64,000 nucleotides of DNA, taken from positions 1 to 64,000 of the forward strand of contig PNKH01000009.1 in NCBI GenBank assembly GCA_013822345.1, given 5' to 3'. Position numbers and translations under genes: made by a program. Under the pieces are notes generated by a model. That model did no database searches, was not told where the DNA came from, and saw only the letters and a list, made by a program, of their open reading frames with translations. Positions 33,043-52,479 of the stretch are shown here, one piece after another (the first letter of the stretch is position 1; each line of letters opens with the position of its first letter). Source of the DNA: Isosphaera sp. GTDB lineage: Bacteria; Planctomycetota; Planctomycetia; Gemmatales; Gemmataceae.

Positions 33043-33067
33043 TGGCCAAGGTGGGACTCGAACCCAC
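33043..33067 (+). other. attL: displaced 3' end of tRNA-Leu
   Basis: This 25-bp sequence is identical to 52398-52422, the 3' acceptor and T-arm of tRNA-Leu (on the minus strand). The base on either side differs between the two copies. The rest of a tRNA is missing here, so it is a duplicated target segment rather than a gene. Confidence 0.85.
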
Positions 33068-34725: not shown

Positions 34726-35886
34726 TCACAGGCTGTGGCTCCCCGGCGCGCGGGGCACGGCGGGGGCGAGGATGCGGACCCGCCCCGGCGACTGCCCGGC
34801 GGCGGTCATCGCCTCCAGCCGCCGGCGGGCGGCGGCGGTGACCGGCTGGCCGCGGCCGAGGAGCAGCACTCCGGCGCGGTTGTACAGGTCCTCGGCCAGC
34901 AGCATCCCGTCCGCTAGTTCGGCGACCGACACCTCCCGCACCTCCAACTCACCGTCCCGCCGGAGGAAGGCCTCCAGGGTGCCGAGGACGTCCGGGTCGT
35001 ACCGCCCGCCCCGGGCCTTCAGCAGCCCGAGGGCCTGCGACTTCGGCACCCCCTGCTCCACCAGTGCGTCGAAGTCGAACGCTACCGCGAGTACCCGGGC
35101 CCCGGGCGGAAGGTTCTTCCCGCGCGGGGACAGCGACGGCGGGCCGGGCGGGGCGAACGGGTGGTCCAGGTGGGCGATGATCTCGGTCACCGGCTCCATC
35201 CGCGGGATGTGCCGGAGTAGCGCCCCGGCCGCCCCGGGCAGGCCGACCTCCCGCCCCCGGTCGTCCGGGCCGGGTCGACCCCCCGCCGCCGGGAGCATCG
35301 CGTCGGGGACGATCACCGTCCCCAACTGGGACAGGACGGCCGCGACGTCCATCGCCCAGCCGGCCCCCGCCCCGGGCCAGGCCAACTCCCGGGCCAGCCG
35401 CTGCACCCGAACCGCCCGCCCAAACCCGGCCGGGGCCGCCAGGGCGAGCACCTCGGCCAGGACCTGGACGCTCCCCCGCAAGGTCTGGTCCAGCAGTTCC
35501 CGCTCGGCGGTGACCAACCGGTACTGGTCGACGGCCGCCCCGACCCCGGTTGCCAGGTCGTCGGGCGAACACGGCTTGGTCAGGAACCGGAAGATGCCGC
35601 CCCGGTTCACCGCCCCGATCGCCTGCCCGACGTCCGCGTACCCGGTCAGCAGGACCCGGACCGCGTCCGGGTACTCGTCCCGCACCCGGGCCAGGAACTG
35701 GATCCCGTCCATCCCCGGCATCCGGGCGTCGGACACCACCACCGCGAACGGCCCGCCGGCGGCCAGGGCGGCCAGCCCCTCGGCCCCGCCGGTGGCGGTG
35801 TGCACCGCGAACCGCTTCCGGAGCTGCCGCTCGTACCCGGCCAGGACGTTCGGCTCGTCGTCCACGAACAACACGTTGGCGGTCAT
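34726..35886 (-). CDS. Response regulator with degenerate HD-GYP-like output domain
   Basis: A 386-residue protein. The receiver domain (1-120) has the phospho-acceptor Asp53 (VSDARMPG) and the switch Lys in FLTKP. The rest aligns in layout with HD-GYP regulators such as RpfG: AVLSQLGTVIVPDAML stands where active enzymes have LHDIGKIGIPD, so the His-Asp metal pair is replaced by Ser-Gln (185-187), and HIPRMEPVTEIIAHLD follows the family spacing. It is therefore probably a non-catalytic, protein-interacting output rather than a c-di-GMP phosphodiesterase. It is the last gene of the operon and overlaps the previous one by four bases. Confidence 0.75.
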   Translation of the reverse strand: MTANVLFVDDEPNVLAGYERQLRKRFAVHTATGGAEGLAALAAGGPFAVVVSDARMPGMDGIQFLARVRDEYPDAVRVLLTGYADVGQAIGAVNRGGIFRFLTKPCSPDDLATGVGAAVDQYRLVTAERELLDQTLRGSVQVLAEVLALAAPAGFGRAVRVQRLARELAWPGAGAGWAMDVAAVLSQLGTVIVPDAMLPAAGGRPGPDDRGREVGLPGAAGALLRHIPRMEPVTEIIAHLDHPFAPPGPPSLSPRGKNLPPGARVLAVAFDFDALVEQGVPKSQALGLLKARGGRYDPDVLGTLEAFLRRDGELEVREVSVAELADGMLLAEDLYNRAGVLLLGRGQPVTAAARRRLEAMTAAGQSPGRVRILAPAVPRAPGSHSL

Positions 35887-37070: not shown

Positions 37071-38617
37071 CACGGCTCCCCCGCGGGTGGGCCGGCCGGG
37101 AGGCGGATGACGAACGTCGTCCCCCTCCCCGACTCGGACTCGAAGGCGATCGTCCCGCCGTGCCGCTTGACCACCACCGCGTGGGCCAGGGCCAGCCCCT
37201 GCCCGGTCCCCTGGCCGACCGGCTTGGTGGTGAAGAACGGGTCGAACACCCGCCCCCGGATCGCCTCCGGGATCCCGCACCCGGTGTCCGCCACCCGGAC
37301 CTCGGCCGCGGCCCCGGCCCGGCGGGTGGACAGGGTGATCGTCCCCTTCACCCCGTCGGGGTTAGCCGCCTTGACCGCATGGGCGGCGTTCACCAACAGG
37401 TTCAGGAACACCTGGTTCAGTTCCCCCGGGAGGCCGGGGACCGGGGCCAGGTCCGGGTCCAGGTCGGTCACCACCTCGGCCACGTACTTCCACTCGTTCC
37501 GGGCGACGGCGACGACCGTCTCGACCGCCCGGTTCAGGTCGACCGGGACCTTCTCGTCCGTCCCCGGGTGGGCGAACTCCTTCATCGCCTGGACGATCCG
37601 GGCGACGTGCTTGACCCCGTCCAGGGTCTGCCCGATCGCCCGCGGGGCCTCGTCCAGCAGGTAGTCCAGGTCCGCCTCCTCGGCCGCCCGGGCGGCCCCG
37701 GCCTGGGCGGCCGGGTCGTCCCCGGCCGCCCGGTACAGGCGGGCCACCCGGCCGAGGTCCGCGAGCGCCCCGGCGAGGAACGTGGTGTTGTCCCCGATGT
37801 ACTGGATCGGGGTGTTGATCTCGTGGGCGATCCCGGCCGCCAGCTGCCCGATCGACTCCAGCTTCTGGGCCTGCTTGAGCTGGTCCTCGAGCACCTTCCG
37901 GTCGGTCACGTCGATCGCCAGGACGAGGCGGGCCGGGCGCCCCAGGAACTCGATCGGGCGGGACGACACCTCGACCTGCCGGACCTCCCCGGACGCCAGC
38001 CGGTGCCGGGCCGGGCCGGAACCGGCGGCCGGCGGGTCGTGGTCCTCGACCTCCCCGACGGTCAGCCCGAGGAACGCGGCCCGGGGGTACCCGTAGTGGG
38101 CCACCGCCGCGTCGTTCACCGCCAGGAACCGGCCGGTCGCCGTGTCGTACACCCACATCGGGTGGGGGTTCGCCTCGAACAGCTGGCGGTACCGCTCCTC
38201 GCTCTCCCGCAGGGCCGACGCCGCCCGCTCCCGCTCGGCCGCGGTCCGCCGGTGCTCGGCCGCGGCGGCGGCCACGGCCGAGACCAACTCGTCCGGCCGG
38301 AACGGCTTGGTCAGGAACCGGAACACGTGCCCGGCGTTGACCGCCTCGGTCGCCTGCCGGACGTCGACCTGCCCGGTCACCAGGACCCGGACCGCGTCCG
38401 GGAACCGCTCCCGGGCGGCGGCCAGGAACCGGATCCCGTCCATCCCCGGCATGTGGAGGTCCGACACCACCACCGCGAACGGCCCCCGGGCGGACAGCAC
38501 GGCCAGGCCCGCCTCGCCGCCCGTCGCGGTCTCGACCGGGTACGCCGGGTGGAGGAACCGCCGGTACGCGCCGAGCATCGACTCGTCGTCGTCCACGCAG
38601 AGGACTGTCCCGCTCAT
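37070..38617 (-). CDS. Receiver-PAS-histidine kinase hybrid
   Basis: A 515-residue soluble kinase. An N-terminal receiver (1-120, Asp53, FLTKPF) is followed by a PAS domain (about 140-240, SEERYRQLFEANPHPMWVYD), then the dimerisation/phosphoacceptor helix with His265 (AGIAHEINTPIQYIGDNT) and an ATPase domain with NLLVNAAHA, DTGCGIP and GTGQGLALAH. The receiver-first order fits an intermediate in a phosphorelay, receiving phosphate and controlling its own kinase. The HEINTP acceptor box is of the NtrB/ZraS type. No membrane segment is present, so it is cytoplasmic. Confidence 0.9.
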   Translation of the reverse strand: MSGTVLCVDDDESMLGAYRRFLHPAYPVETATGGEAGLAVLSARGPFAVVVSDLHMPGMDGIRFLAAARERFPDAVRVLVTGQVDVRQATEAVNAGHVFRFLTKPFRPDELVSAVAAAAAEHRRTAAERERAASALRESEERYRQLFEANPHPMWVYDTATGRFLAVNDAAVAHYGYPRAAFLGLTVGEVEDHDPPAAGSGPARHRLASGEVRQVEVSSRPIEFLGRPARLVLAIDVTDRKVLEDQLKQAQKLESIGQLAAGIAHEINTPIQYIGDNTTFLAGALADLGRVARLYRAAGDDPAAQAGAARAAEEADLDYLLDEAPRAIGQTLDGVKHVARIVQAMKEFAHPGTDEKVPVDLNRAVETVVAVARNEWKYVAEVVTDLDPDLAPVPGLPGELNQVFLNLLVNAAHAVKAANPDGVKGTITLSTRRAGAAAEVRVADTGCGIPEAIRGRVFDPFFTTKPVGQGTGQGLALAHAVVVKRHGGTIAFESESGRGTTFVIRLPAGPPAGEP

Positions 38618-38698
38618 GCCGCCCCCCGGGTGACCGGACCGCCTCGGGCAATGATCGGTCGGGGTGGATGGATAATTGCGTCCGCCCCCGTCCCGCCG

Positions 38699-41600
38699 TC
38701 AGCCGCTCCCGTCCAGGACGTCGCGGACCTTCTGGGCGAGGGCGGCCGGGGAGAACGGCTTCTGCAGGAAGTGGGTGCCGTTCTCGAGGACCCCGTGCCG
38801 CACCACCGTGTCGTCCGTGTACCCGCTGGTGAACAGCACCTTGGCCCCGGGGTGGCGGGCGAGCACCGCCTCGGCCACCTGTCGGCCGCCCACCCCGCCC
38901 GGCATCACCACGTCCGTCAGCAGCAGGTGGAGCGGCCCGGGGTGCCCCGCCGCGACCCCCGCCGCCTCCCGCCCGTTCCCGGCGTCCAGGACGGTGTACC
39001 CGCACTGGCGGAGGACGTGCCGGCCCAGGGCCCGGACCGCCTCCTCGTCCTCGACCAACAGTACCGTCTCGGTCCCCCGGGGCATCGAGGCGAGGCGCAG
39101 CCCCGACTTCCCGGCGGCCGGGGCGCCCCCGACCCGGGGCAGGTAGAGGCGGAACGTCGACCCCCGCCCCGGCTCGCTCTGCACCTCGACATGCCCGCCG
39201 GACTGCTTGACGAACCCGAACACCATCGCCAGCCCCAGCCCGGTTCCTTTCCCGACCCCCTTGGTGGTGAAGAACGGCTCGAAGATCCGGGCCCGCACCT
39301 CGTCCGTCATCCCGCACCCGGTGTCCGCGACCGACAGCACCACGTACCGGCCGGGCCGCACGTCCGCGTGGGCCGCGGCGTCGGCCGCGTCCAGGTCCGC
39401 GTTCCGCGTCTCGACCGTCAGCAGCCCGCCCCGGGGCATGGCGTCCCGGGCGTTGACGCACAGGTTGACGATCGCCTGCTCCAGCTGGCCCGGGTCGGCC
39501 CGGACACGCCCCAGGCTCGGGGCCAGCCGGGTGGTGAGGTCGATGTCCTCCCCGATCAGCCGCCGGAGCATCCGCTCGAGGTCCCGGACCAGGGCGTTCG
39601 GCTCGAGCACCTTCGGCTCGAGCAGCGTCTGCCGGCTGAACGCGAGCAGCTGCCGGGTCAGGCCGGCGGCCCGGTCCCCGGCCCGGGTGATCTCCGCCAG
39701 CAGTTCCTGGGCCGGGTGGTCGGCCGGCAGTTCCCGCCCGACCACCTCGCTGTACCCGTTGATGATGGTCAGGAGGTTGTTGAAGTCGTGGGCCACCCCG
39801 CCCGCCAGCCGCCCGACCGCCTCCATCTTCTGCGCCTGCCGGAACTGGTCCTCCAGCCGCCGCCGCCCGGTCACGTCCGTCTGCACCCCGACGAAGTGGG
39901 TCAGCCGGCCGGCGGCGTCCCGGATCGGGGACAGGAGGAGTTGGTTCCAGAACGGGGTGCCGTCCTTGCGGTAGTTGAGGAGTTCCACGTCGCACGGGCG
40001 GCCGACCCGGAGGGCCTCCCGGACCGCGGCCAGCGCCTGTGGGTCGGTCCCCGGCCCCTGGAGGAACCGGCAGTTCCGCCCGAGCACCTCGGCCCCGGCG
40101 TACCCGGTCAGCCGCTCGAACCCGGGGCTGGCGTAGATGATCGGGTGGTCCGGGCGGGTGTGGTCGGTGATGACGAGGCCCCCGTTCACCGCCTGGATCG
40201 CCCGGTCGCGGAGGAGGAGGGCGTGCTCCGCCTGCCGGCGGGCGGTCACGTCGTGGGTCAGGAAGAGGGCCCCCTGGAAGGTGCCGTCGGGGTCGAACAG
40301 GGGGGTGGTGTACCACTCGCAGACGATGGCCCGCCCGTCCCGGGTGACGCACTCGTACGTCCCGTGGGCGTCCATGTCGCCGGCCCGGAGCCGGTCCAGG
40401 AGTTCGTCCACCGCCGGCCGGGACTGCGGGGGCACGATCACCCCGGACGGGTGCCGGCCGAGCACCTCCGCCTCTGCGAACCCGAACGTCCGCTCGGCCG
40501 CCGGGTTCCACCGGGTGTACCGGAAGTCCGCGTCGGTCAGCAGGTAGCCGAGGGGCATCCGCTCGATCTGGAGGTTGGTCCGGGCGAGCAGGTTCCCCCG
40601 GTCGATCTCGGCCTGCCGGTGCCGGTGGACGTCGGTGTGGACCCCGACCCACTCCCGGATCGCCCCGTCGCGGCCGAGGATCGGGACCGCCCGGACGGAC
40701 ATCCAGCGGTACTCCCCGTCCGCCCGGCGGAGCCGGTGCTCGACCTCGTACGCGGTCCGGCCGCCCAGCGCCGCCGACCACCCCCGGGCGGTGTCCGCCC
40801 GGTCGTCCGGGTGGATGGCGTCGAGCCACCCCCACCCCCGGGACTGGTCGAACCCCTGCCCGGTGAACGCCGCCCACCCCGGCTGGTCCGTCCCGAACTC
40901 GCCCGACGCCGGGGTGGTCCACACGATCGCGGCGGTCGCCGCGATCAGGGTCCGGTACCGCTCCTCGCTCTCCCGGAGGGCGGTCTCGGCCGTCTTCCTC
41001 TCGGTGACGTCCCGGCCGACCGCCTGGACCTCGGCCAGGCGGCCGTCCGGGTCGTAGAACCCGCGGTTGACGAACTCCATCCACCGCACCCGCCCGGCCC
41101 CGTCGGTCACCCGGTTCTCGACCACCACGACGGGGTCGGCGGCCGACATCCCGGCCAGCCGGGCCTCGATCCTGTCCCGGTCGTCCGGGTGAGCCAACGG
41201 CTGCCAGCGGCCGCCGAGGAGTTCCCCAGGGGCCTTGCCGAACACCCGGCAGTACACCTCGTTGACGAAGGTGATGGTCCCGTCCGCCCGGAACCGGCAC
41301 ACCACCTCCGTCTGGTCCTGGACCACCCGCCGGTGCCGCTCCTCGCTCAGCCGCAGGGCCTCCTCGGCGTGCCGGCGGTCGGTGATGTCCCGGACGACCT
41401 TGCACGCCCCGGCCACCCCCCCGCCGGGGCCGAGGACCGGGGAGATCGTCACCGCCACGTCGATCCGGGCCCCGCCCTTGCGGACCCGGACGGTCTCGAA
41501 CGTCTCCCCGGCCCCGCCCCGCCGGACCCGGTCCATCACCCGGCCCAGCTCCCCCGCCTTCTCCGGCGGGACGAGGAGCGAGACGGGGCGGCCGACCGCC

Positions 41601-42172
41601 TCGGCGGCGGGGTACCCGAACAGCCGCTCGGCCGCCGGGTTCCAGGTCTTGATCACCCCGTCGGGGGTCAGCGAGACGATCCCGTCGGCGGACGACTCGA
41701 CCAGCGCGGCCAGGTGGGCGACCGCCTCCTCCGCCCGCCGCCCGGCCCGGCGGCGGGCGGCCTCCCGGACCTCCCGCCCGACGGCCGGGGCGAGGCGGGA
41801 CAGGGCGTGCTTGAGCACGAAGTCGTTCGCCCCGGCCCGCATCACCTCGACCGCGACCTCCTCGCCGACGGTCCCCGAGACCACCAGGAACGGCAAGTCG
41901 GGGTCGGCTTCCCGGACCACCCCCAGCGCGGCCCGTGCGCCGAACCCGGGCAGGGTGTAGTCGCTCAGGACCGCGTCCCACGTCCCGGCCGCCAGGGCGG
42001 CCCGCAGCCCGTCGGCCGAGTCGGCCCGCTCCCAGGACGGGTCGAACCCGCCCCGCCGGAGGGCCAGGACGATCAGCTCGGCGTCCTCCGCCCGGTCCTC
42101 GACCACGAGGACGCGGAGGGGCGCCGCCGTCGGGGCCCGACCCTCGCGGGAAGCCACGGTGTAACCGGTCAC
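38699..42172 (-). CDS. LOV-domain hybrid sensor histidine kinase
   Basis: A 1157-residue soluble hybrid kinase. Domains in order: receiver-like (18-138, Asp71), PAS1 (about 150-268), PAS2 (275-393), PAS3 (402-517), PAS4 (533-645), LOV (about 655-768), phosphoacceptor helix with His795 (GGVAHDFNN), ATPase (about 905-1010, NLCVNARDAM, DTGCGM) and a C-terminal receiver (LLTDVVMPGG, FLQKPFS). The LOV domain has GRNCRFLQG with the flavin-adduct cysteine Cys701 and NYRKDGTPFWNQL, FVGVQTDVT, the full canonical set for blue-light photochemistry. It probably feeds phosphate to the neighbouring receivers. It lies 30 bases after the single-domain regulator gene. Confidence 0.9.
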   Translation of the reverse strand: MTGYTVASREGRAPTAAPLRVLVVEDRAEDAELIVLALRRGGFDPSWERADSADGLRAALAAGTWDAVLSDYTLPGFGARAALGVVREADPDLPFLVVSGTVGEEVAVEVMRAGANDFVLKHALSRLAPAVGREVREAARRRAGRRAEEAVAHLAALVESSADGIVSLTPDGVIKTWNPAAERLFGYPAAEAVGRPVSLLVPPEKAGELGRVMDRVRRGGAGETFETVRVRKGGARIDVAVTISPVLGPGGGVAGACKVVRDITDRRHAEEALRLSEERHRRVVQDQTEVVCRFRADGTITFVNEVYCRVFGKAPGELLGGRWQPLAHPDDRDRIEARLAGMSAADPVVVVENRVTDGAGRVRWMEFVNRGFYDPDGRLAEVQAVGRDVTERKTAETALRESEERYRTLIAATAAIVWTTPASGEFGTDQPGWAAFTGQGFDQSRGWGWLDAIHPDDRADTARGWSAALGGRTAYEVEHRLRRADGEYRWMSVRAVPILGRDGAIREWVGVHTDVHRHRQAEIDRGNLLARTNLQIERMPLGYLLTDADFRYTRWNPAAERTFGFAEAEVLGRHPSGVIVPPQSRPAVDELLDRLRAGDMDAHGTYECVTRDGRAIVCEWYTTPLFDPDGTFQGALFLTHDVTARRQAEHALLLRDRAIQAVNGGLVITDHTRPDHPIIYASPGFERLTGYAGAEVLGRNCRFLQGPGTDPQALAAVREALRVGRPCDVELLNYRKDGTPFWNQLLLSPIRDAAGRLTHFVGVQTDVTGRRRLEDQFRQAQKMEAVGRLAGGVAHDFNNLLTIINGYSEVVGRELPADHPAQELLAEITRAGDRAAGLTRQLLAFSRQTLLEPKVLEPNALVRDLERMLRRLIGEDIDLTTRLAPSLGRVRADPGQLEQAIVNLCVNARDAMPRGGLLTVETRNADLDAADAAAHADVRPGRYVVLSVADTGCGMTDEVRARIFEPFFTTKGVGKGTGLGLAMVFGFVKQSGGHVEVQSEPGRGSTFRLYLPRVGGAPAAGKSGLRLASMPRGTETVLLVEDEEAVRALGRHVLRQCGYTVLDAGNGREAAGVAAGHPGPLHLLLTDVVMPGGVGGRQVAEAVLARHPGAKVLFTSGYTDDTVVRHGVLENGTHFLQKPFSPAALAQKVRDVLDGSG

Positions 42173-42202
42173 GGGGGTCCTCCGCCGGGGTGGGTGGACC
42201 GG

Positions 42203-42646
42203 TCACGGGCGGCCCGCGGGCGGCTCGTTGAGCACCAGCCAGTACATCTGGAGCTGCTGGACGGCGGTCACGAACTGCCCGAAGTCGACCGGCTTGCGGA
42301 CGTAGCTGTTCGCCCCCAGGTCGTACCCCCGCATCACGTCCTCCTCCTCCCGGGACGACGTGAGGATGACGACCGGGAGGCGGCGGGTGGCCGCGGCCCC
42401 CCGGACCCGGTGGAGCACGTCCAGCCCGCCGACCCGCGGGAGCTTGAGGTCGAGCAGGACGAGTTGGGGCAGGTCGGCCGGGTCCCGGGCGGCGTGCGCC
42501 CCCTCGGCGAACAGGTAGTCGAGCGCCTCCCGCCCGTCCCGGGCCACCACCACCTCGTTGGCCAGGTTGCTCTTGCGGAACGCGAGCAGGGCCAACTCCT
42601 CGTCGTCCGGGTTGTCCTCGACGAGGAGGATCACCTTCGGCGTCAT
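42203..42646 (-). CDS. Single-domain response regulator (Rcp1-like)
   Basis: A 147-residue stand-alone receiver domain. It starts [19 protein letters not shown], has acceptor Asp66 (LLDLKLP), Thr/Ser in LTSS and Lys118 (YVRKPVDF). The sequence is of the Rcp1/CheY-like class that pairs with bacteriophytochrome-type kinases and lacks an output domain, so it acts as a phosphate shuttle. It overlaps the upstream kinase gene by four bases (ATGA), making that kinase its probable partner. The C-terminal helix ends in an aromatic segment ([11 protein letters not shown]), also typical of this class. Confidence 0.9.
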
Positions 42647-43809
42647 GACGGGTCTCCGGGCCCGGGCAGGGTGAAGTAGAAGGCGGCCCCGCGGCCCGGC
42701 TCGCCCTCGGCCCAGACCTCCCCGCCGTGCCGGCGGACGACCCGCTGGACGGTGGCCAATCCGACCCCGGTGCCCGGGAACTCGCGGTCCGGGTGGAGCC
42801 GCTGGAACGCCCCGAACAGCTTGTCGGCGTAGGCCATGTCGAACCCGGCCCCGTCGTCCCGGACGCAGAACGCCGCCCGGCCGCGGTGCTCCTCCCGCCC
42901 GAACTCGATCGCCGCCTCCGGCCGCCGGGACGTGAACTTCCAGGCGTTCCCGAGCAGGTTCTCGAGGACCACCCGGACGAGCCGGGGGTCGGCGTCGACG
43001 GCCAGGCCGGGCCGGGCGGTGAACGCGACCCGGCGGCCGGGGTCCCGCTGCCGCAACTCGCCGACGACGGCTTCCGCCATCGCGGTCAGGTCGACCCGCT
43101 CGCGGCACATCTCGGCCCGGCTCACCCGGGACAGGTTCAGCAGGTCGTCGATCAACTGACCCATCCGTTGGGTCCCGGCCCGGACCCGCGTCAGGTAGTG
43201 GCGCCCCTGGTCGTCGAGCCGGTCGGCGTAGGCGTCCAGAAGTTCTCGGCTGAACCCGTCGATCGCCCGGAGCGGGGCCCGCAGGTCGTGGGAGACCGAG
43301 TAGCAGAACGCCTCCAGTTCCCGGTTGGCGGCGGCCAGCTCGCGGTTCGCCTCGCGCAACTCCCGGTTGGCGGCGGCGAGGTCGGCCGTGCGGGCGGCCA
43401 CTCGCTCCTCGAGCGCGGCGTTCGCCCACCGCAACTCGTCCCGGGAGCGCAACCGGTTTGTGTGGTCCTCGATCGCCAGCAGGACCATCGGGGCCGGGTC
43501 GTCGTCCCCGCGGACCACCCGGGCGCTCAGTACGAGTTGCCGGCGGCCGAGCCCGGGGAACTCGTGGTCGACCTCCAACCCCTCGAAGTGCACACCGGTC
43601 GGGATCACCCGTTCGAGTAGCCCCCGGAGGGCCGGGATGTCCCATCGCCCCCCGCCCAGGTCGTGCAACCGGCGGCCCTCGGTCCCGGCCGGTTCGCCGG
43701 GGAAGCTGTGGTAGAACGGGGCGTTGGCCGCGATCACCCGCAGCCCCGCGTCGAGGACGAGCAGGGGGTGGCGGACCGTCTCGACGATGCTCCGGGCGAA
43801 GGCCCGCAT
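42643..43809 (-). CDS. Soluble PAS-coiled-coil histidine kinase
   Basis: A 388-residue kinase and first gene of the operon. A PAS-like domain occupies about 1-118 ([24 protein letters not shown]), then a strong coiled coil with a repeated [19 protein letters not shown] pattern (about 120-168), the phosphoacceptor helix with His174 ([18 protein letters not shown]) and an ATPase domain ([27 protein letters not shown]). The acceptor box matches bacteriophytochrome-type kinases. ATG at 43809 follows the PAS start; a longer frame reaches 43956 without domain content. Confidence 0.85.
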
Positions 43810-44795
43810 GGCGCTCCCGGCCGGGGGGTTGAGAGGTTGCCGGGCGACCCACGCCGGCGCGACCTGCGGCAAGCACGAGGTCGCATCGGTCGTCCCCGAT
43901 GATGATATAGGACAGGAAGTGATTCGAGGATGTCTTTCGCCCCCCCGCGAGATCATCGCACGTGGCTCCTGCCCCGCCTCAGGTATCCAGACGACACCGC
44001 GTCACGCGCCGGCCCGCGGGCCGGGCGGGTCCGAAGCCCCGCTCACTCGTCGCGCAACACGGCAGGAGGTCGCATCCGCCTCGGCCTCCGTCGCGTGCCG
44101 GGCGGAGTCGAAGTACGTCCCGCCGGGTCGACGAGCCCGAGACCCTCGCCCGGGGGCACCCGAAACCGTGCCTTTGCCCGGGCTGGTACGACTCCCCCGG
44201 GACGCTCCGCGATCCGACTCATCGGACCGCCCAAGCCCGCTTTCGTCCCACGTCTCCGAGATCCTGTCACCGGAGGCCTCGTTACTCTTCACTCGTTCCG
44301 CAGGGTGAGCAGCTCTTCGCCGCCCGGCAAGATCGGATCAGTTCCGACCGGTAGGCGACGGAACGAGGGTTCGCGACACGGCGAGAGGCCGGCTGGACCG
44401 GCCGGCCGCCGTGACGAAGCGCTCGGCATTCATCTTCACCACGGCGCTGCGGAGAAACTAACTCTGTCAGGTGCTCCGCGGGTTCCCCCGACGAACGACA
44501 CCCAACCACCGCTCGGAAGGACCCGAGACGCCGACCGGGCGGCCCGGGCCAAGCCGGCGACCGTCCCCGCCGTCCCCGGGCGAGTCGGAAAGCAAGACTG
44601 TCCCGGACTACGACCATTTCGGGTGAGGGCGGGTGGGCGGCGGTCGCGAGACCGGCCCGGGCCGACCCGGGTCGGGGTCGGGGGACACCCGACAGGTCGT
44701 GACGGTCACCGGCACCGCGTGGCAGGATTTGACAGCACGCGAATCGGTGTTATTTTGTACACGTCGCCACGGGTGGCGACGCGAGGCCGACAGGT
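43810..44795. other. Large gene-poor divergent region in the element
   Basis: Nearly 1 kb between the leftward phosphorelay operon and the rightward QueC-like module. Several overlapping frames of 75-300 codons exist, but their codon use and content look random and they contradict each other. A weak leftward -10 candidate (TATATCAT on the minus strand near 43901-43910) precedes the kinase gene, and a good rightward promoter lies at 44729-44756. No structured RNA was identified. Confidence 0.45.
44729..44756 (+). promoter_or_regulatory. Sigma-70-type promoter of the QueC-like module
   Basis: TTGACA at 44729-44734 is separated by 16 bases from TATTTT at 44751-44756, in an otherwise GC-rich region. 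It points at the short ORF starting at 44796, giving a leader of about 33 bases. This is the only near-consensus promoter I found in the element. Confidence 0.65.
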
Positions 44796-45023
44796 ATGGG
44801 TCACGTCCGGCTGGGCACCCTCTCGCACACCGTGAAGTGGGTGCGGGTAGTGGGGCTGATCGGGACCCGGGCCGACGCCCGGCGGGTCGCCGCCGACCGC
44901 ACGAGCGAATGGTTCACCTCGTCACCTCCGCCCGACCGACAATCCCGGGAATCGAGCCGAACTCCGCGCCCGGCCGGGGGCGGCTCGGTGTGGCGGCGAA
45001 TCGCCTCCGTCGGGTCGAGGTGA
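44796..45023 (+). CDS. Short Met-Gly ORF duplicating the N-terminus of the next protein
   Basis: A 75-residue ORF. It opens MGHVRLGTLSHTVKWVRVVGLIG, matching the next gene's MGHVRLGPLPATRKWDQVVALIG at 16 of 23 positions, and then diverges into low-complexity sequence rich in Ser, Arg and Pro. It stops three bases before the next ATG. It may be a truncated duplicate, or a short peptide that shares the N-terminal recognition sequence of the partner protein. The promoter at 44729 lies directly upstream, so it is probably transcribed. I cannot tell whether the tail is functional. Confidence 0.55.
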   Translation: MGHVRLGTLSHTVKWVRVVGLIGTRADARRVAADRTSEWFTSSPPPDRQSRESSRTPRPAGGGSVWRRIASVGSR

Positions 45024-45026
45024 GCG

Positions 45027-45818
45027 ATGGGACACGTCCGTCTCGGGCCGCTCCCCGCGACCCGCAAGTGGGACCAGGTCGTCGCCCTGATCGGCGGCGG
45101 GGCGGCCGCCGCCCAGCTCGCCACCGCCACCATGACCGCCGCCGAGCGCGGGCTGAAGGCGGCGGCCGACGACCCCGGTGTCCTGGAGGCCGTGTGGCTC
45201 CTGGTCCGCATCCCGCTCGCCGCCCGCTCTCCCGACTTCACCGCCGCCCTGCGGAAGATCGGGTTGGACGTGCCCGACGGCCCGGGGCTGGTGGACGTCG
45301 CCGTCGCCCTGACCGCCGCCGTGGACACCGCCCTGCCGGACGGCCGCGGTCGGACGGACCTCGGGGAGATGGCCCAGACCGCCGCCGTCGAGACGGTGAA
45401 CGCGACGGTCGGGCCGCGGGCCGCGTCCCTGTGGGGGGCGGGACCCGACGAAGTGCGGGCGGCGTTCGCCGCGCTCGCGACCCCGGCCCAGTTCGGGGCG
45501 CTCGCCCGCCGGTTCTTCGCCCGGTTCGCCTTCAAGTACCTGAACTACTTCGTCAGCAAGGCCCTCCCCCGGCACGTCGGCGAAGGCGAGCGGTTCCGCA
45601 CCGTGGCCGAGCAGTCCCGGTTCACCGACGCCCTCCGCACCCACTGCCACGAGGCCACGAAGGTCGTCGAGGTGTTCGCCGGGGAGTGGTTCTCGAAACA
45701 CCGGTACGAGTCCGGCGGGGACATCACCCGCGAGGAGGCCCGCGGGTTCCTGGGGTACGCCGTCGCCGTCAAGCTGACCGGTGAGTTCCTCCGGCGGGAG
45801 GGCCGCCGTGGCGCGTGA
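45027..45818 (+). CDS. Met-Gly-starting helical partner of a QueC-like enzyme (QatB-like role proposed)
   Basis: A 263-residue, largely helical protein without signal or membrane segments. It starts MGHVRLGPL, so methionine removal would leave an N-terminal glycine. Visible segments are GGGAAAAQLATATMTAAERGL, RTDLGEMAQTAAVETVNA and FARFAFKYLNYFVSKALPRHVG. I recognise no named domain. The layout (Gly-start helical protein directly followed by a QueC-like enzyme) parallels QatB/QatC of the Qat defence system, where the QueC-like enzyme is thought to act on its neighbour's N-terminus. A GAGGTG ribosome site precedes the ATG. It overlaps the next gene. Confidence 0.75.
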   Translation: MGHVRLGPLPATRKWDQVVALIGGGAAAAQLATATMTAAERGLKAAADDPGVLEAVWLLVRIPLAARSPDFTAALRKIGLDVPDGPGLVDVAVALTAAVDTALPDGRGRTDLGEMAQTAAVETVNATVGPRAASLWGAGPDEVRAAFAALATPAQFGALARRFFARFAFKYLNYFVSKALPRHVGEGERFRTVAEQSRFTDALRTHCHEATKVVEVFAGEWFSKHRYESGGDITREEARGFLGYAVAVKLTGEFLRREGRRGA

Positions 45819-47943
45819 GCGAGCCGTCCTCTGCGGCGGGGCGTACGGCCGCGGCCTGCCGGAGCGACCGCGTCAGGTCGAGCTGAACATCTACGGCCGC
45901 GGGGCGAACGTCCACATCGGGCTGGAGGCGGTCCGCCGGGCGCTGTGGACGGACCTCCCGCCGGTCCTCCGCGACCTGCTCGACGTGGCCGTGTACGTGT
46001 ACGCCGCCGACCAGGCGGTCCCGCGGGCGGACGGCGGGCGGGTGGACGGGCCGGAGGTCGGGGCCGGGTGGCGGCGGTCGTTGCGGTTCCGAGTCCCCGT
46101 CCGGGAGCCCGACCGGTGGAACTCCCATCCGGTCCGGGCGGCGCTGGTGTCGGCCCTCAGCTTCCTTTCCGAGGACGAGTACCGGTTCGAGTTCTGCCAC
46201 CTTCGTAAGGACACCGCGCTGGACGGGTTCATCGACTTCGACACAACCCCGTTCGCGGGGGTGGTCGAGGAGGTGGTGATGTTCTCCGGCGGGCTGGACT
46301 CGCTGGCCGGGGCCGTCACCGAGGCGGTCGTCGGGGGCCGGCAGGTGCTGCTGGTCCACCACCGGTCGAGTGACAAGCTGGCCCCGCACCACAACCGATT
46401 GGTGCGAGCGCTCAAAGCGGCTTCGGGCGCTCGCGCGCCGCTCCACTTCGCCCTCCTGGCGAACAAGGCGAAGCGGCTGGGGCGGGAGTTCACCCAGCGG
46501 ACCCGGTCGTTCCTGTTCGCCGCCCTCGGGGCGGTGTTCGCCCGGATGACCGGGCTTGACCGCCTGCGGTTCTACGAGAACGGGGTCACCAGCCTGAACC
46601 TCCCGCCGTCGGCGCAGGTGGTCGGGGCGCGGGCGTCGCGGACTACCCACCCGCGGGTGTTGGCCGGGTTCGGGCGGCTGCTCACCGCGCTGTTCGACCG
46701 GCCGTTCGCGGTCGAGAACCCGTTCCAGTGGGACACCAAGACCGACGTGGTCAAGCGGATCGCGGACGCCGGGGCCGCGGGCCTGATCGGGCGGTCGATC
46801 AGTTGCGGACACACATGGGAGATGAAGTCGAAGATCCACACCCATTGCGGGGTGTGCTCGCAGTGCATCGACCGGCGGTTCGCGGTCCTGGCCGCGGGAC
46901 AGGCGGACCACGACCCCGTAAAAGGCTACGCGGTGGAGCTGCTGACCGGGGACCGCCGGGACGAGGAGCAGAAGACGATGGTGGCCGGGTATCTGGACCT
47001 GGCGGCCCGGGTGGAGCGGATGGGGCCTGCCGAGTTCTTCGCCCACTTCGGGGAGGTGGCCCGGGCGCTGCCGCACCTGGGCCTGCCGGCAGCGGCGGGG
47101 GCGGCGCGGGTATTCGAGTTGTACCGCAAACACGCCCGGCAGGTGAACGGGGTGATCGATGACGCGATCGCGGCGCACTGCCGGTCGATCCGGACACGGA
47201 CCCTTTCGCCAAATTGCTTGCTCCGGCTCGTGTACGACGACGGGGCCGGGGACGTGCCCGCCCGCGCTGAGCCGGTACGCCCGGCCGGGAACTACTTCCT
47301 CCGACGGTGCCGGGTTTGGGTCGGTCGGTATCTCGGCGGAGAGGAAGCGGTCTACCTGCCGGAGCGCGGCCTGGAATACCTGCACATCCTGTTTGCGTCG
47401 CCGGGTCGGACGTTCACGGCGTCGGAACTCGCTGCTAGAGTCGCGTGTCGCCCGACCCCAACCGCGGCACGTGGGGTGAGTGCGGCCGAGGCACAAGACG
47501 CGGGGGTGGGGGTCGTCCGGTCCCCACTGGCCGACGACACTTTGGACGACGAAGCGGTCGAGGCCCTGCGGTCCCGTCTCGCGGAGATCGAGGAGCGCCG
47601 GCCGGAGGTCGAGGCGAGCAACGAGCCGGGACGGCTGGAACTCCTGGACGAACTCGATGCCGAACTGCGAAACATCCGGAACCGGCTCGGCCGTGACCTC
47701 GGTCGGGGCGGCCGTCCCCGGGCGCTCGCCGGCGAGTGGGACCGCGTCCGGAACCGGGTCTGCAACGCGATCAAGCGGGCGATGAAGCAACTCCGCGAGT
47801 ACGACCCACCGCTCGCCGACCACCTTACCCGACCCGTCCTCAACCTGGGGCACACGATCAGCTACGTCCCGAGGACCGACATCCGGTGGGACACCGGTCG
47901 GTGGCCTCCGACCGGAGGAAATCCGGGGCTACACGAAAAGTAG
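45808..47943 (+). CDS. QueC-like PP-loop enzyme with C-terminal helical extension
   Basis: A 711-residue protein. The ATP-pyrophosphatase signature SGGLDSLAG is at 160-168, followed by RTRSFLFAAL (232-241), ENPFQWDTKTDVVKRIADAG (303-322) and a zinc site of four cysteines, Cys333, 347, 350 and 353 (CGVCSQC), all in QueC order. QueC makes 7-cyano-7-deazaguanine; QueC-like enzymes of Qat and type IV CBASS instead serve defence. An N-terminal region of about 150 residues and a C-terminal 350-residue region are extra; the latter ends with GRPR...RNRVCNAIKRAMKQL...DPPLADHL, a helical module seen fused to various regulatory proteins. GTG at 45808 follows GGGAGGG by five bases; an upstream GTG at 45781 is possible. 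Confidence 0.8.
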   Translation: MARERAVLCGGAYGRGLPERPRQVELNIYGRGANVHIGLEAVRRALWTDLPPVLRDLLDVAVYVYAADQAVPRADGGRVDGPEVGAGWRRSLRFRVPVREPDRWNSHPVRAALVSALSFLSEDEYRFEFCHLRKDTALDGFIDFDTTPFAGVVEEVVMFSGGLDSLAGAVTEAVVGGRQVLLVHHRSSDKLAPHHNRLVRALKAASGARAPLHFALLANKAKRLGREFTQRTRSFLFAALGAVFARMTGLDRLRFYENGVTSLNLPPSAQVVGARASRTTHPRVLAGFGRLLTALFDRPFAVENPFQWDTKTDVVKRIADAGAAGLIGRSISCGHTWEMKSKIHTHCGVCSQCIDRRFAVLAAGQADHDPVKGYAVELLTGDRRDEEQKTMVAGYLDLAARVERMGPAEFFAHFGEVARALPHLGLPAAAGAARVFELYRKHARQVNGVIDDAIAAHCRSIRTRTLSPNCLLRLVYDDGAGDVPARAEPVRPAGNYFLRRCRVWVGRYLGGEEAVYLPERGLEYLHILFASPGRTFTASELAARVACRPTPTAARGVSAAEAQDAGVGVVRSPLADDTLDDEAVEALRSRLAEIEERRPEVEASNEPGRLELLDELDAELRNIRNRLGRDLGRGGRPRALAGEWDRVRNRVCNAIKRAMKQLREYDPPLADHLTRPVLNLGHTISYVPRTDIRWDTGRWPPTGGNPGLHEK

Positions 47944-48367: not shown

Positions 48368-50977
48368 ATGGTTCAGAACCACAGGTCAGATCACGGACCG
48401 GACAAGGAAAACCTGACGCCGGTGTCGAAGGCCGCCCCGTGCGCGGTGTGCGGCGGCGACCACAAGTGCTCCCGCGGGGACAGCGGACTGATCATCTGCG
48501 GCCGCCGCGACGGCCCGGTCCCCGGGTTTCGACACCTCGGGGCGGCGAAGGGCGACCCTCAGTTCCACCTGTTCCGCCGCGACGAGGGGGCCGATGCGGC
48601 GCCCGCCCCGGCGCGGAAGCCGAAGCCCACACCGCCCCGCGACTGGGGGGTGGACGCCGCCCGGTACGCCAAGGGCTTCACCGCGGAGGCCCGACAGGAA
48701 CTCGCCTCCCGGCTCGGCCTGCCGCCCGCGGCCTTCGACGCGCTGCCGCTGCTCGGCGTGTCCGGGGGGAGGGCCGCCGGACGGGTGTTCGCCTTCCCCG
48801 AGTGCGACGCGACCGGGCGGGTGGTCGGGATCACCGAGCGGATCCCGGAGCCGGACGGGACGGAGGCGAAGAAGATGCGGTCCGGTGGGGGTCGCGGGCT
48901 GACGGTCCCAAACGGTTGGCGCGACCGGCCCGGGCCGGTGTTGCTGGTCGAGGGGGCGTCCGACACCCTGGCCCTGACCGTGGCCGGACTGGGGGCGGTC
49001 GGCCGGCCGTCGAACACCGGCGGGGTCGAGCACCTCGCCGCGCTGCTCGCCGACCTGCCGGTCGACCGGAAGGTGGTGGTCGTGGGTGAGAACGACCGCA
49101 AGGAGGACGGCTCCTGGCCCGGCCGCGAGGGGTCGGAGCGGGTGGCGTCGACCCTCCGGTCCCGGCTCGGCCGGGGGGTGATGGTGGCCATGCCCCCGGA
49201 CGGGGCGAAGGACGTGCGGGCATGGCTCGTCGACCGGGCCGGAGAAAATCCGAACTGGGCCGCCCTCGGCCGAGAGTTGCTCGGGCTCCTGACCGCGTCG
49301 GCCCAGGTGCCCGCCGGGGGCCGACGGCCGGAGGTCGTCGTCACCACGGCGGAGCACGCGGTGAACGACGCGGCCGCGGCCGCCCTGCCGGCCGCGGAGC
49401 GGGTGTACCAGCGGGGCGGGCTCCTGGTCCACGTCCTGGCCCTCGACGCCCCGACCGCCGGCCCGGCGGCCGTCCGCCAACCCGCCGGGGCGGTCGTGGT
49501 CCGGGAACTCTCCCAGCCGCTGCTGCGGGAGGAGTTCACCCGGGTCGCGGATTGGGTGCGGGTGGTGGAGACGAAGGAGGGGCCCGTGACGGTCCCTACC
49601 CACCCGCCGGGGTGGTGCGTCCAGGCCGTCCACGCCCGCGGCCACTGGCCCGGGGTGCGGAACCTGGAGGCGGTCGTGACCCACCCGATCCTGCTCGCCG
49701 ACGGGTCGCTCCTGGTTGCCGACGGGTATCACCGCCCGACCGGGGTGCTGGTCCGGCTCCCGCCGGGGCTCCGGCTCGCGGTCGCGGACGCCCCGACCCG
49801 GGCGGACGTGGCCGCCGCCGTGAAGCTGCTGTTCGACGCGGTGTGCGACTTCCCGTTCGAGCGGCCGGAGCACCGGGGGGCGTGGCTGGCCGGGCTCCTC
49901 ACCCCGCTCGCCTGGTTCGCGTTCGACGGGCCGTCCCCGTTCTACCTGATCGACGGGAACGTCCGCGGGGTGGGGAAGGGGCTGCTCGCCGACGCGATCG
50001 CCATTCCGGTCCTCGGCCGCCGGTTCTCGGCCATGTCCTACACCGCCGACCGGGACGAGCTGCGGAAGCGGATCACGAGCGTCGCGGCCGAGGGGGAGCG
50101 GATGGTGTTGCTCGACAACCTGGCCGGGCCGGTCGGGAACGACCAGCTCGACGCGGCCCTGACCGCCGACCGCTGGAAGGACCGATTGTTGGGCGGGAAC
50201 AGGGTGTTCGACGGCCCGCTGAACGTGGTCTGGTACGGGACCGGGAACAACTGCGAGCTGCGGGCCGACACCAGCCGGCGGACCTGCCACGTCCGGCTGG
50301 AGTCCCCGGCCGAGCGGCCGGAGGAGCGGGCCGGGTTCCGGCACCCGCACCTCCGACAGCACCTCCGCCGGCACCGCGACGCGCTGCTCTCGGCGGCCCT
50401 CACCATCCTCCGGGGGTGGGTGACGGCCGGGCGCCCGCGGCACGGGCTGCCGCCGTGGGGGAGCTACGAGTCCTGGTCCGAGGTGGTGCGGGAGGCGGTG
50501 GTCTGGGCGGGGGAGCCAGACCCGGGGCTGACCCGGGTGGCGCTCCAGACGGCGGCCGACCGGAACGCCCTGGCGATGACGGTGCTGCTCAACGGCCTCC
50601 GGCGGATCGACCCCGACCGGCAGGGGCTGACGGCGTCTGGGATCGTCGAGGCGGCGAAGACGCACCCGGACCTGCGGGCGGCGGTCGAGGACCTGGCCGG
50701 GCGGTTGGACACCCGCCCGCTCGGGTACGCTCTGCGGTCGTTCGCCCGCCGGAACTTCGACGGGCTGTTCCTGGACAACGCGGCCACCACGGGGCAGGGG
50801 GTGCGGTGGGCCGCGTACCCGATCACCGAGTTCCGGTCCCGACCGACATCACCCCCATCACCCCCATCGCCACCGACACCGCCCGGGGGCGATGGTGGCG
50901 ACGGTGACGATGCCCCGGGCCGCGCCCCGCAGTCCGGGCGGCTGTTCGAGACGGACGGCGGCAGGCTGCCGGACTGA
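48368..50977 (+). CDS. TOPRIM primase/helicase-like replication protein
   Basis: An 869-residue protein. An N-terminal zinc finger (Cys25, Cys28, Cys34, Cys44; CAVCGGDHKC) precedes a TOPRIM domain with LLVEGASDTLAL (Glu195) and VGENDRKEDG (239-248). The C-terminal half holds an ATPase-like core with GNVRGVGKG (P-loop variant) and LLDNLAG, as in phage and plasmid primase-helicases. It probably replicates the excised element. The tail is low complexity with repeated SPP and GGD units, encoded by CACCCCCAT repeats near 50850-50900. Codon use and GC match the rest of the element. The integrase begins 120 bases downstream. Confidence 0.85.
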   Translation: MVQNHRSDHGPDKENLTPVSKAAPCAVCGGDHKCSRGDSGLIICGRRDGPVPGFRHLGAAKGDPQFHLFRRDEGADAAPAPARKPKPTPPRDWGVDAARYAKGFTAEARQELASRLGLPPAAFDALPLLGVSGGRAAGRVFAFPECDATGRVVGITERIPEPDGTEAKKMRSGGGRGLTVPNGWRDRPGPVLLVEGASDTLALTVAGLGAVGRPSNTGGVEHLAALLADLPVDRKVVVVGENDRKEDGSWPGREGSERVASTLRSRLGRGVMVAMPPDGAKDVRAWLVDRAGENPNWAALGRELLGLLTASAQVPAGGRRPEVVVTTAEHAVNDAAAAALPAAERVYQRGGLLVHVLALDAPTAGPAAVRQPAGAVVVRELSQPLLREEFTRVADWVRVVETKEGPVTVPTHPPGWCVQAVHARGHWPGVRNLEAVVTHPILLADGSLLVADGYHRPTGVLVRLPPGLRLAVADAPTRADVAAAVKLLFDAVCDFPFERPEHRGAWLAGLLTPLAWFAFDGPSPFYLIDGNVRGVGKGLLADAIAIPVLGRRFSAMSYTADRDELRKRITSVAAEGERMVLLDNLAGPVGNDQLDAALTADRWKDRLLGGNRVFDGPLNVVWYGTGNNCELRADTSRRTCHVRLESPAERPEERAGFRHPHLRQHLRRHRDALLSAALTILRGWVTAGRPRHGLPPWGSYESWSEVVREAVVWAGEPDPGLTRVALQTAADRNALAMTVLLNGLRRIDPDRQGLTASGIVEAAKTHPDLRAAVEDLAGRLDTRPLGYALRSFARRNFDGLFLDNAATTGQGVRWAAYPITEFRSRPTSPPSPPSPPTPPGGDGGDGDDAPGRAPQSGRLFETDGGRLPD

Positions 50978-51097
50978 CGCTTCCGCTGCCCGCCGGCTCC
51001 CGAGGTGGAGCGGTCCGGGCGAATGAGGTACGATACCCCACCCCTGACCGGCCGGGACCACAACACGCCCGGCCGATCTCCCCCAGGACCCTTCCCG

Positions 51098-52447
51098 ATG
51101 GCCTCGCTCAGCCGCGACGCGAACGGCAACTACACGGTCCAGGTGGTGTGCGGGGACGGCCGGCGCCGGTCCGTCCGTCTCGGGAAGGTGAACAAGAAGA
51201 CCGCGACCGAGGTCAAGCTGAAGGTCGAGCACCTGAACTCGATCACGGTGGCCAAGCTCCCGATGGACACGGAGACGAGCCAGTGGGTCGCCGGGATCGG
51301 GGACGACCTCGCCGCCAAGCTCGCGGCGGTCGGGCTGGTGCCGGCCCGCGAGTCCCGCACCCTTCGGAGGTTCCTGGACGACTACATCGCCGGGCGGGCC
51401 GGGGACGGGCACACCAAGCCCGCGACCCTGGTCACCATCCGGCGGGTGGCCGACGACCTGACGGCGGTACTCGGGGCGACGGCGGACCTGCGGGACGTGT
51501 CCGTCGGGCACGCCGAGCGGTTCAAGCGGTTCTACCAGGACAAGGACCTCGCCCCGGCCACCACCTACCGCCGGCTGAAGATGGCGAAGATGCTGTTCAA
51601 CCACGCGGTGAAGCTGAAGCTCGTCGCCGAGAACCCGTTCGCGGACGTGAAGGGCAAGAACACCAACCCCGCCGAGCGTCGCCACTACGTCACCGAGGCG
51701 GATACTCGGCGGCTGATCGAAGCCGCGAACCCGACGTGGCGGACCATCATCGCACTGGCCCGGTTCGCGGGGCTTCGGTGCCCGTCCGAAGTCCTCTCCC
51801 TCCGGTGGGAGAACGTGGACTTCGCCACCAACCGGATGACCGTCTCGTCCCCGAAGACGGAGCACCTCGAAGGCCGGGCGTACCGGGTGGTCCCGATCTT
51901 CGCCCGCCTCCGGCCGTTCCTGGAGGAGGCGTTCGAGCTGGCCGAGCCGGGCGAGGTGTACGTCGTCGGCGGGCGGCAGGGGGGCGCCTACCGGGCGACC
52001 GCACAGAAGCCGGGCGGGTGGGTGAACACGAACCTGCGGACCACGTTCGAGAAGCTCATCCGGCGGGCCGGGCTCCAGGCGTGGCCGCGTCTGTTCCACA
52101 ACCTGCGGGCGAGCTGCGAGACGGACCTGATGCGGGACCACCCGATCCACGTCGTCACCGCCTGGATCGGCAACACCCCGAAGATCGCCCTCGGCCACTA
52201 CCTCCAGACGCTGGAGGCGGACTTCGAGAAGGCGGTCCGGGGCGGTGCAGATTCCGGTGCAGTTGCGGTGCAAAAGGCGGTGCAGTCACGAGCCGCCGGG
52301 GACGGACCGCAGACGACACGGACGCCGGAAGCCCTAGAAATCCGAGGCTCCCGACGTCCCGGGTCGTCTGCTGGCGATAACTGTCCGTCTGTTCAGATGG
52401 CCAAGGTGGGACTCGAACCCACACGCCTTTGGGGCGCTCGATTTTGA
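51098..52447 (+). CDS. Tyrosine recombinase integrase
   Basis: A 449-residue integrase. An N-terminal arm-binding region (1-80) and a SAM-like core-binding domain (about 88-185) precede the catalytic domain with Arg227 (AGLRCPSEVLSL), Lys253 (SPKTEHL), His334 and Arg337 (HNLRASCETDL), Trp356 at the second His/Trp position (TAWIGNTPK) and the nucleophile Tyr368 (LGHYLQ). ATG at 51098 begins MASLSRD. The frame has no stop after the catalytic domain until inside the tRNA-Leu gene, so the last 17 or so residues (QMAKVGLEPTRLWGARF) are encoded antisense to the tRNA. That region also carries GGTGCAG repeats. Confidence 0.9.
   Translation: MASLSRDANGNYTVQVVCGDGRRRSVRLGKVNKKTATEVKLKVEHLNSITVAKLPMDTETSQWVAGIGDDLAAKLAAVGLVPARESRTLRRFLDDYIAGRAGDGHTKPATLVTIRRVADDLTAVLGATADLRDVSVGHAERFKRFYQDKDLAPATTYRRLKMAKMLFNHAVKLKLVAENPFADVKGKNTNPAERRHYVTEADTRRLIEAANPTWRTIIALARFAGLRCPSEVLSLRWENVDFATNRMTVSSPKTEHLEGRAYRVVPIFARLRPFLEEAFELAEPGEVYVVGGRQGGAYRATAQKPGGWVNTNLRTTFEKLIRRAGLQAWPRLFHNLRASCETDLMRDHPIHVVTAWIGNTPKIALGHYLQTLEADFEKAVRGGADSGAVAVQKAVQSRAAGDGPQTTRTPEALEIRGSRRPGSSAGDNCPSVQMAKVGLEPTRLWGARF
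52244..52285 (+). repeat. Right-arm GGTGCAG repeat array (integrase arm-site candidates)
   Basis: Four copies, three GGTGCAG and one GGTGCAA, start at 52244, 52256, 52267 and 52279, i.e. 12, 11 and 12 bp apart, about one helical turn. They end 112 bp before the attR core and lie within the 3' part of the integrase gene. Two copies with the same 12-bp spacing lie on the left arm. Confidence 0.65.
52398..52422 (+). other. attR core: 3' end of tRNA-Leu
   Basis: This 25-bp segment is shared perfectly with 33043-33067. It comprises the acceptor 3' strand plus most of the T arm of the intact tRNA-Leu on the minus strand, the usual target of tyrosine integrases. Confidence 0.85.
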
Positions 52448-52479
52448 GTCGAGTGCGTCTGCCATTCCGCCACTTGGCC
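52398..52479 (-). tRNA. tRNA-Leu (anticodon CAA)
   Basis: An 82-nt class II tRNA. Acceptor stem GGCCAAG pairs with CTTGGCC; the D region reads TGGCGGAATGGCAGACGCA as in leucine tRNAs; anticodon stem CTCGA/TCGAG encloses the loop CTCAAAA with anticodon CAA; a long variable arm (CGCCCCAAAGGCG) and a T loop with TTCGAGT follow. CCA is not encoded. The 3' end is the integration site of the adjacent element, which has regenerated a complete gene. Confidence 0.95.

Follow-up and report, generated by a model that had tools for sequence, protein, structure and literature searches.

A 64,000-nucleotide stretch of DNA from Isosphaera sp. (assembly GCA_013822345.1, contig PNKH01000009.1, positions 1 to 64,000; hereafter the window), which forms the beginning of one contig (C9) of a 7.47 Mb genome in 226 contigs, carries two overlapping forward-strand genes that encode a QatC-type enzyme and, upstream of it, a 263-residue partner with the predicted helical fold of QatB (Table 1). 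The identity of the two as a QatBC-type pair is almost certain. The favoured account of their function, held with distinctly less assurance, is that they form a naturally minimal QatBC module, which would act in defence by conjugation at the second residue of the partner (Gly2) and travel as a cassette. A preliminary description, made from the sequence of the window alone, had reported a helical protein with a Met-Gly start overlapping a QueC-superfamily enzyme with a PP-loop and a four-cysteine site, and had proposed a comparison with QatB and QatC. Both open reading frames (ORFs) were found, with these enzyme motifs retained in 60/60 aligned members, and the observation of the pair is confirmed. 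Published facts on related systems are drawn from PMC13279940 and PMC13329287.

A QatC-type enzyme and a partner with a predicted QatB fold

The assignment of the enzyme to QatC comes from profile searches and from modelled structure. PADLOC matches it to QatC at an expect value (E) of 9.4e-50 and to QueC at 0.0051, and solved QatC chains are matched at E 1.3e-23 and 1e-22. On the NCBIfam QueC model TIGR00364 it scores 16.5 bits, far below the cut-off of 150.3, and the same genome encodes a separate QueC (contig C85) that reaches 190.5 bits; grouping with biosynthetic QueC had been named in the preliminary description as grounds for rejection, and the enzyme does not score as such, although the two share the PP-loop core and zinc site. 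A structural model was available from a natural relative (L096, positions 4964-7753) in which partner and enzyme lie in one uninterrupted 930-amino-acid frame, the single such case among 160 loci, which may reflect a stop codon lost to sequencing error. This model has a mean predicted local distance difference test score (pLDDT) of 85.2 and a predicted template modelling score (pTM) of 0.78. It matches solved QatC with a Z-score of 34.3 over 398/428 residues (QatC residues 22-457), compared with 14.0 for QueC and 13.7 for Cap9, where the shared core alone is matched. Judged by these models, the enzyme is a QatC with QatC-specific N- and C-terminal extensions placed around a QueC core.

The motifs of QatC, as listed in PMC13329287 and PMC13279940, were checked in an alignment of the window enzyme and 59 relatives, with residues counted from position 45781 of the window. 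They comprise D(x)4R, WxR, DxW/YxxxF, SGGxDS, RxRxxxF/Y, ExG, HP, P(x)4TK, the zinc site and a threonine pair. D77, R82, W97, the PP-loop, R240, R242, E266, G268, H290, P291 and the four cysteines are invariant in 60/60, and the other motif residues are kept in 58 (R99), 58 (D132), 60 (F138), 60 (F/Y246), 54 (P314), 59 (T319) and 55 (K320) members; at Y134, where the motif asks for Trp or Tyr, Tyr is kept in 52/60 and Phe is found in 8. The threonine pair corresponds to positions 286 (Thr in 50, Ser in 10) and 288 (Thr in 59, Ser in 1). In QueC and Cap9 this place is taken by a Tyr/Asp pair that reads the nucleobase CDG (7-carboxy-7-deazaguanine), whereas QatC has the threonine pair, and according to the same account the QatB-docking loop of QatC is missing from both QueC and Cap9 (PMC13279940). 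That loop aligns gap-free to the window enzyme.

The likelier start of the enzyme is GTG 45808, as read from the sequence, with GGGAGGG immediately 5' and an 11-nt overlap with the end of the partner gene. Across the family, the distance from the partner end to the start of the enzyme profile match has a median of -14 nt and is negative in 134/150 cases, values that are approximate because the profile match may start 5' of the true start codon.

The window-type enzyme is about 200 residues longer than the QatCs of four plasmid operons (434-455 amino acids). This additional C-terminal part is usual in the family: at least 150 residues (median 221) follow the end of the profile match in 83 of 101 complete non-redundant enzymes, the profile ending at the equivalent of window residue 470. 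The Pfam domain Trans_reg_C, an OmpR-type winged helix, is matched in 7/60 members, and in the five for which it was placed it lies at the C-terminus and above cut-off; the window enzyme itself has no Pfam match to Trans_reg_C. Together with the secondary structure of the fusion model, these relatives suggest a winged-helix label for the tail. Another protein of the window genome (L002:419-1792) ends in a similar module and has a recombinase-like frame, named by eye, alongside it on the opposite strand.

The partner was modelled with AlphaFold2 from 60 sequences (mean pLDDT 89.3, pTM 0.89), and by this model it has the QatB helical fold. In a Foldseek search of 350,542 PDB chains, QatB (9y01) was the top match by E-value, with a probability of 1.00. 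Alignment to chain 9y01_A gave a Z-score of 12.7 and a root-mean-square deviation of 3.8 over 205/215 residues at 11% identity, the next unrelated chain reaching Z 4.5. The comparison with QatB anticipated in the preliminary description is thus borne out for the predicted fold. A restriction enzyme was also considered for the partner, from matches to SgrAIR (E 0.021, PDB set) and to a type II enzyme (E 0.0046, PADLOC) on the same 51 residues, and was dropped because nearly the whole partner fold matched QatB.

Several results weigh against the QatBC assignment. The E-value of the Foldseek match to QatB is 0.18 only, and hhalign comparison of the partner profile with QatB, for which only four sequences served, returned a probability of 0.8%. 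The partner has no QatB match in NCBIfam or PADLOC and no convincing match across the family libraries. On the enzyme side, the score on the NCBIfam QatC equivalog is 184.3 bits, below the cut-off of 280.

In a tree, the enzyme family stands apart from the QatC proteins of qatABCD operons with branch support of 100/99. This tree of 50 rows (the window enzyme, 36 of the 60 selected family members and 13 other QatC-like proteins) is unrooted, contains no QueC and has long branches. A third QatC-like group (L051, L052 and L054) forms a long branch of its own. Its upstream gene encodes about 190-210 amino acids with MAENESLDL at or near the start in all three (L051 copy at 2580-3158, reverse strand), the remainder diverging to 34% and 30% identity with the L051 copy. 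Removal of Met would here expose Ala2, not Gly2, and a helix-turn-helix (HTH)-type gene lies downstream in at least two of the three.

The partner N-terminus and the group it may carry

The preliminary description had taken Gly2 to be constrained, naming beforehand its loss from homologous partners as grounds for rejection. Among 157 partner rows, not all independent, the N-terminus is intact in 150 and truncated or interrupted in 7, the start being set as the start codon closest to profile position 1 regardless of the following residue; glycine is second in 150/150 of the intact N-termini, with His3 in 145, Pro10 in 137 and Trp15 in 141. Among relatives of the window genome, 27/32 places extend to residue 1, and glycine is second in 27/27. 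In the 60-row partner alignment, residues 1-24 rank first for conservation among 231 windows of the same size. That the partner always starts with Met-Gly suggests that the enzyme attaches something to its N-terminus, and by analogy with known systems conjugation of a group to Gly2 is probable. In QatB, the substitution G2D abolishes defence, and the N-terminus begins with MGTS and has a Pro/Trp anchor, after which comes a variable linker (PMC13279940), an arrangement also seen in four QatB examples from plasmid Qat operons.

The resemblance to QatB is incomplete at this end. The MGTS motif and long disordered tail of QatB are not found in the partner, in which residue 3 is His in 145/150 and the first predicted helix begins at residue 13. 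Two observations make it harder to see how Gly2 would get into the active site: the partner lacks the disordered tail of 30-90 residues that QatB has, its QatB-like fold being aligned from residue 7, and pLDDT is below 50 for residues 1-11 of the fusion model.

The preliminary description had also looked to 7-deazaguanine as the conjugate, and as a required group this did not hold. The conjugate need not be 7-deazaguanine, because the Tyr/Asp readers of CDG are Ser/Thr in the enzyme, as in QatC, and because of one host genome. The window genome has its own QueC and two PTPS-family genes, and QueC is found above cut-off in 33/38 genomes (the window genome and those of 37 of the best-80 genome loci). 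In Tepidicella xavieri (L129, genome G230), however, the pair and the enzyme motifs are intact and there is no QueC over cut-off, no PTPS/QueD and, by the one family tried, no QueE. That family scores at least 335 bits in the genomes of L073 and L082 and falls below cut-off in the window genome also, so it does not cover every QueE. The absence of detected CDG-pathway genes in T. xavieri therefore argues weakly against CDG as the sole substrate, and weighs to that extent against the deazaguanine form of the Gly2 proposal. The window genome additionally contains a second divergent QueC-like gene (G000:C8:17778-18886, reverse strand; 74.5 bits), which adjoins a PTPS-family gene and is separate from the C85 QueC.

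Distribution and mobile setting of the pair

Related loci were fetched by enzyme patterns only: from 392 relatives in GTDB species genomes and 155 in IMG/VR, the 80 best of each set were taken. The 160 loci represent 106 enzymes distinct at 85% identity and include some near-copies. The partner profile is matched in 156/160. Three of the four loci without a match have the enzyme at a contig end and the fourth (L079) has room for a partner. The family that the preliminary description had singled out by its MGHVRLG start thus recurs as a pair, across several bacterial phyla as well as among viral sequences, so that the two genes are not chance neighbours. Among phage and plasmid records the partner was found in 0/50,697 and 0/72,556, respectively, at E 1e-5; the window enzyme matched two Listeria phages at 27% identity and had matches in 138 plasmid records, 22 of the 30 listed being annotated QatC. 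A published account of a two-gene QatBC, or of QatC in phages, was not found, most subscription papers and bioRxiv lying outside the coverage.

QatA and QatD are absent, as had been noted for the window: profiles built from four plasmid Qat operons matched in 0/160 loci and found nothing in the window. In 100/160 loci both genes would fit, the enzyme frame being preceded by 3 kb or more and followed by at least 1.5 kb. As a control, nine QatC-like loci outside the family, with short flanks, yielded QatD in six and QatA in one, and for this reason the test for QatA is weaker than that for QatD.

The mobile location proposed in the preliminary description is supported, because a tyrosine integrase gene adjoins tRNA-Leu and an exact 25-bp repeat is shared by positions 33043 and 52398. 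Integrase, tRNA-Leu and repeat delimit an integrative element of about 19.4 kb with the pair inside. No whole tRNA was detected at 33043 by tRNA searches there, and this far attachment site may belong to an older neighbouring element. Upstream of the pair, position 44729, with which the preliminary description had begun its feature, is the onset of a promoter-like TTGACA; the site has 10/12 consensus matches, compared with a shuffle mean of 0.0 (standard deviation 0.2). The short ORF that follows appears to duplicate the partner N-terminus in truncated form, because the 60-row partner profile matches its residues 1-34 at E 4.6e-7. In another genome (G050), a tandem pair of partner frames stands ahead of a single enzyme. 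Also within the repeat-bounded stretch, response-regulator and histidine-kinase-like ORFs, named by eye, lie in a row at 34726-43956 on the reverse strand.

Table 1. Features of the window, the pair first
Feature	Position	Strand	Basis or remark
QatB-fold partner (predicted), 263 amino acids, start MGHVRLGPLPATRKW, presumed substrate via Gly2	45027..45818	+	AlphaFold2 model and structure search
Partner residues 1-24, motif MGHxRLGxLPxTRxW	45027..45098	+	Most conserved 24-residue window
QatC-like enzyme	45808..47943	+	Frame open from GTG 45781; probable start GTG 45808
SGGLDS PP-loop, residues 169-174	46285..46302	+	S169, G170, G171, D173 and S174 in 60/60
SRTTHP, residues 286-291	46636..46653	+	Counterpart of QatC T278/T280, end of QatB-docking loop (alignment; PMC13279940)
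Zinc-site cysteines C342...C356xxC359xxC362	46804..46866	+	60/60 aligned members
C-terminal extension beyond QatC, about residues 500-720	47278..47940	+	Winged-helix-type in some relatives
Sigma-70-like promoter candidate TTGACA-16-TATTTT	44729..44756	+	10/12 consensus matches; upstream of unit
Short ORF, 75 amino acids, start MGHVRLGTLSHTVKW	44796..45023	+	Candidate truncated copy of partner N-terminus
Large ORF of element, weak DnaG-like similarity	48368..50977	+	PADLOC 15.6 bits; no Pfam match
Tyrosine integrase of element	51005..52447	+	PF00589, 38.2 bits
tRNA-Leu (CAA), integration site	52398..52479	-	tRNA search and repeat
25-bp direct repeat of tRNA-Leu 3' end, probable far attachment site	33043..33067		Exact copy of 52398-52422

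Neighbouring genes were grouped into clusters, each named from a single member. A serine-recombinase cluster lies near 57 of the 106 non-redundant loci, or 68 with two more clusters called tyrosine integrase by eye; a replication/recombination cluster is found in 71 and either type in 87, these being raw counts with no background set. On the 60 genome-contig loci alone, the counts are 31 for integrase and 33 for replication. One frequent arrangement runs from DUF2924 through serine recombinase, a small gene, partner, enzyme, a 125-amino-acid gene, a weakly sigma-like gene, AAA_24, DUF669, RusA and helicase to primase-polymerase. A search of viral contigs by means of AAA_24 and primase, with the best 80 for each gene, gave 62 regions with the sigma-like gene and upstream room, of which 11 have the pair whole or in part and 51 have none; after deduplication, 10/53 comparable regions carry it. 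Within one group of viral contigs that have a serine recombinase, the pair is an optional cassette in a fixed slot, and its standing as a core phage gene is rejected on the 43/53 distinct regions without it. Terminase was found in 5/22 long pair-bearing viral records, three of them clear, so many such records are fragments, prophage parts or non-phage sequences.

In 29 pair-less regions (26 distinct) the slot is filled by 0.85-4.8 kb of other genes. These alternative cassettes were tried as known defence systems, with 20 of their proteins run against PADLOC and 18 against Pfam, and were mostly nameless. In loci L230-L387 this variable slot, flanked on one side by the small gene that follows the serine recombinase and on the other by the sigma-like gene, holds several unnamed two-gene cassettes of about 400 + 350 amino acids, and several alternatives seem, by eye, to end in HTH domains.

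Relation to known systems and competing accounts of function

Set beside qatABCD, the window-family enzyme shows the QatC fold, both extensions and a QatB-docking loop of equal length, and the upstream gene encodes a protein with the predicted QatB fold and an invariant Gly2. The pair differs from these operons in having no detected QatA or QatD and in the separate position of its enzyme in the tree (100/99). Its partner has an N-terminal tail of about 12 residues with MGHxRLGxLPxTRxW, where QatB has MGTS...PLVPxW together with a long linker; its enzyme carries about 200 additional residues at the C-terminus, and it often lies in viral-contig slots or integrative elements. The preliminary description had called the pair a reduced or distinct system. 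Reduced stands, with the addition of an extra C-terminal part in the enzyme; distinct, in the sense of unrelated to Qat, does not, because the partner has the QatB fold and the enzyme is a QatC with its specific extensions. Type IV cyclic-oligonucleotide-based anti-phage signalling systems (CBASS) likewise join a QueC-superfamily enzyme, Cap9, to a Met-Gly partner (PMC13279940), but the window partner has the QatB fold rather than that of a CD-NTase, and the enzyme is much larger and lacks the Tyr/Asp readers. Comparison of 15 neighbour proteins with Pfam or PHROGs gave no CD-NTase or transglycosylase name; no profile search was made for Cap10.

By analogy with Qat, defence is the probable main role of the pair: QatBC without QatA and QatD is reported to suffice against lambda in truncated operons (PMC13279940). 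In the mechanism proposed, the QatC-type ATP pyrophosphatase would bind the QatB-fold partner, as their predicted folds and co-occurrence lead one to expect. The initiator Met of the partner would be removed and Gly2 would enter the QatC active site, for which the invariant Gly2, the conserved motif around it and the precedents of QatBC and Cap9 speak. The enzyme would then activate a small carboxylate, not necessarily CDG, with ATP and couple it to the amine of Gly2. Once modified, the QatB-fold protein would block other phages, perhaps in concert with the DNA-binding-type tail of the enzyme and in line with the reported sufficiency of QatBC against lambda, and the pair would move as a cassette on viral and integrative elements. 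It weighs against this defence reading that, of the 20 alternative-cassette proteins, PADLOC named no more than two, a pVip-like radical SAM protein and an HNH nuclease.

The strongest competitor, itself unlikely, is a regulatory switch of the mobile element, in which the enzyme with its DNA-binding-type tail and the partner would control lysis-lysogeny or transfer, modification of the partner N-terminus being the signal. The additional C-terminal part, Trans_reg_C in 7/60 members, is consistent with this, as is the fact that in one viral-contig group the pair has the serine-recombinase side on one flank and the replication genes on the other, a placement typical of immunity regions; other gene sets, several seemingly HTH-ended, occupy the same slot. 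However, QatC as such belongs to defence, a pVip-like or HNH gene sits in two of the slots, and a core switch would not be expected to be missing from 43/53 comparable regions, unless the alternatives take over its task. A scheme that joins these elements, in which a QatC-type ligase with an OmpR-type tail would modify the Gly of the QatB-fold partner with a group other than 7-deazaguanine, as an expression switch of the element (immunity or exclusion) whose job unrelated cassettes in the slot share, is improbable.

Equally improbable is a QatBC-type defence pair without a stable Gly2 conjugate, whose N-terminus would only activate the enzyme or be sensed upon phage disturbance. The CDG-reading residues are replaced in the enzyme, and according to PMC13279940 QatC activity was not reconstituted and the reaction is called unresolved. 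Against this, the invariant Gly2 of the partner and the essential G2 of QatB (PMC13279940) fit acylation of an N-terminal amine. That the pair is a functionless remnant in the window genome is very unlikely: the upstream partner copy is truncated and some relatives have interrupted frames, but here both main frames are intact, the checked catalytic residues are kept and a strong promoter-like site lies upstream. Least probable of all is a divergent QueC, the 7-cyano-7-deazaguanine synthase, or another gene from a queuosine or DNA-base pathway, a reading that a Pfam QueC match (26.3 bits, cut-off 22) and the queuosine biosynthesis label of the PHROG matching the enzyme would favour, in the face of the true QueC elsewhere in the genome with its far higher TIGR00364 score, the lack of any queD or queE name among the 15 neighbour proteins run, and a structure fit to QatC far above that to QueC.

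With the naturally minimal QatBC module favoured here, QatBC would exist in nature as two genes, across several phyla and viral contigs; its sufficiency for defence, against lambda, had earlier been shown in truncated operons. Such a compact system, one member of which is a natural fusion of partner and enzyme, lends itself to the search for the QatC reaction. With its short partner tail and a host that has no detectable CDG genes, it allows a direct test of whether deazaguanine or some other group is used. The pair also suggests a QatC-type identity for some phage genes that carry a queuosine biosynthesis label.

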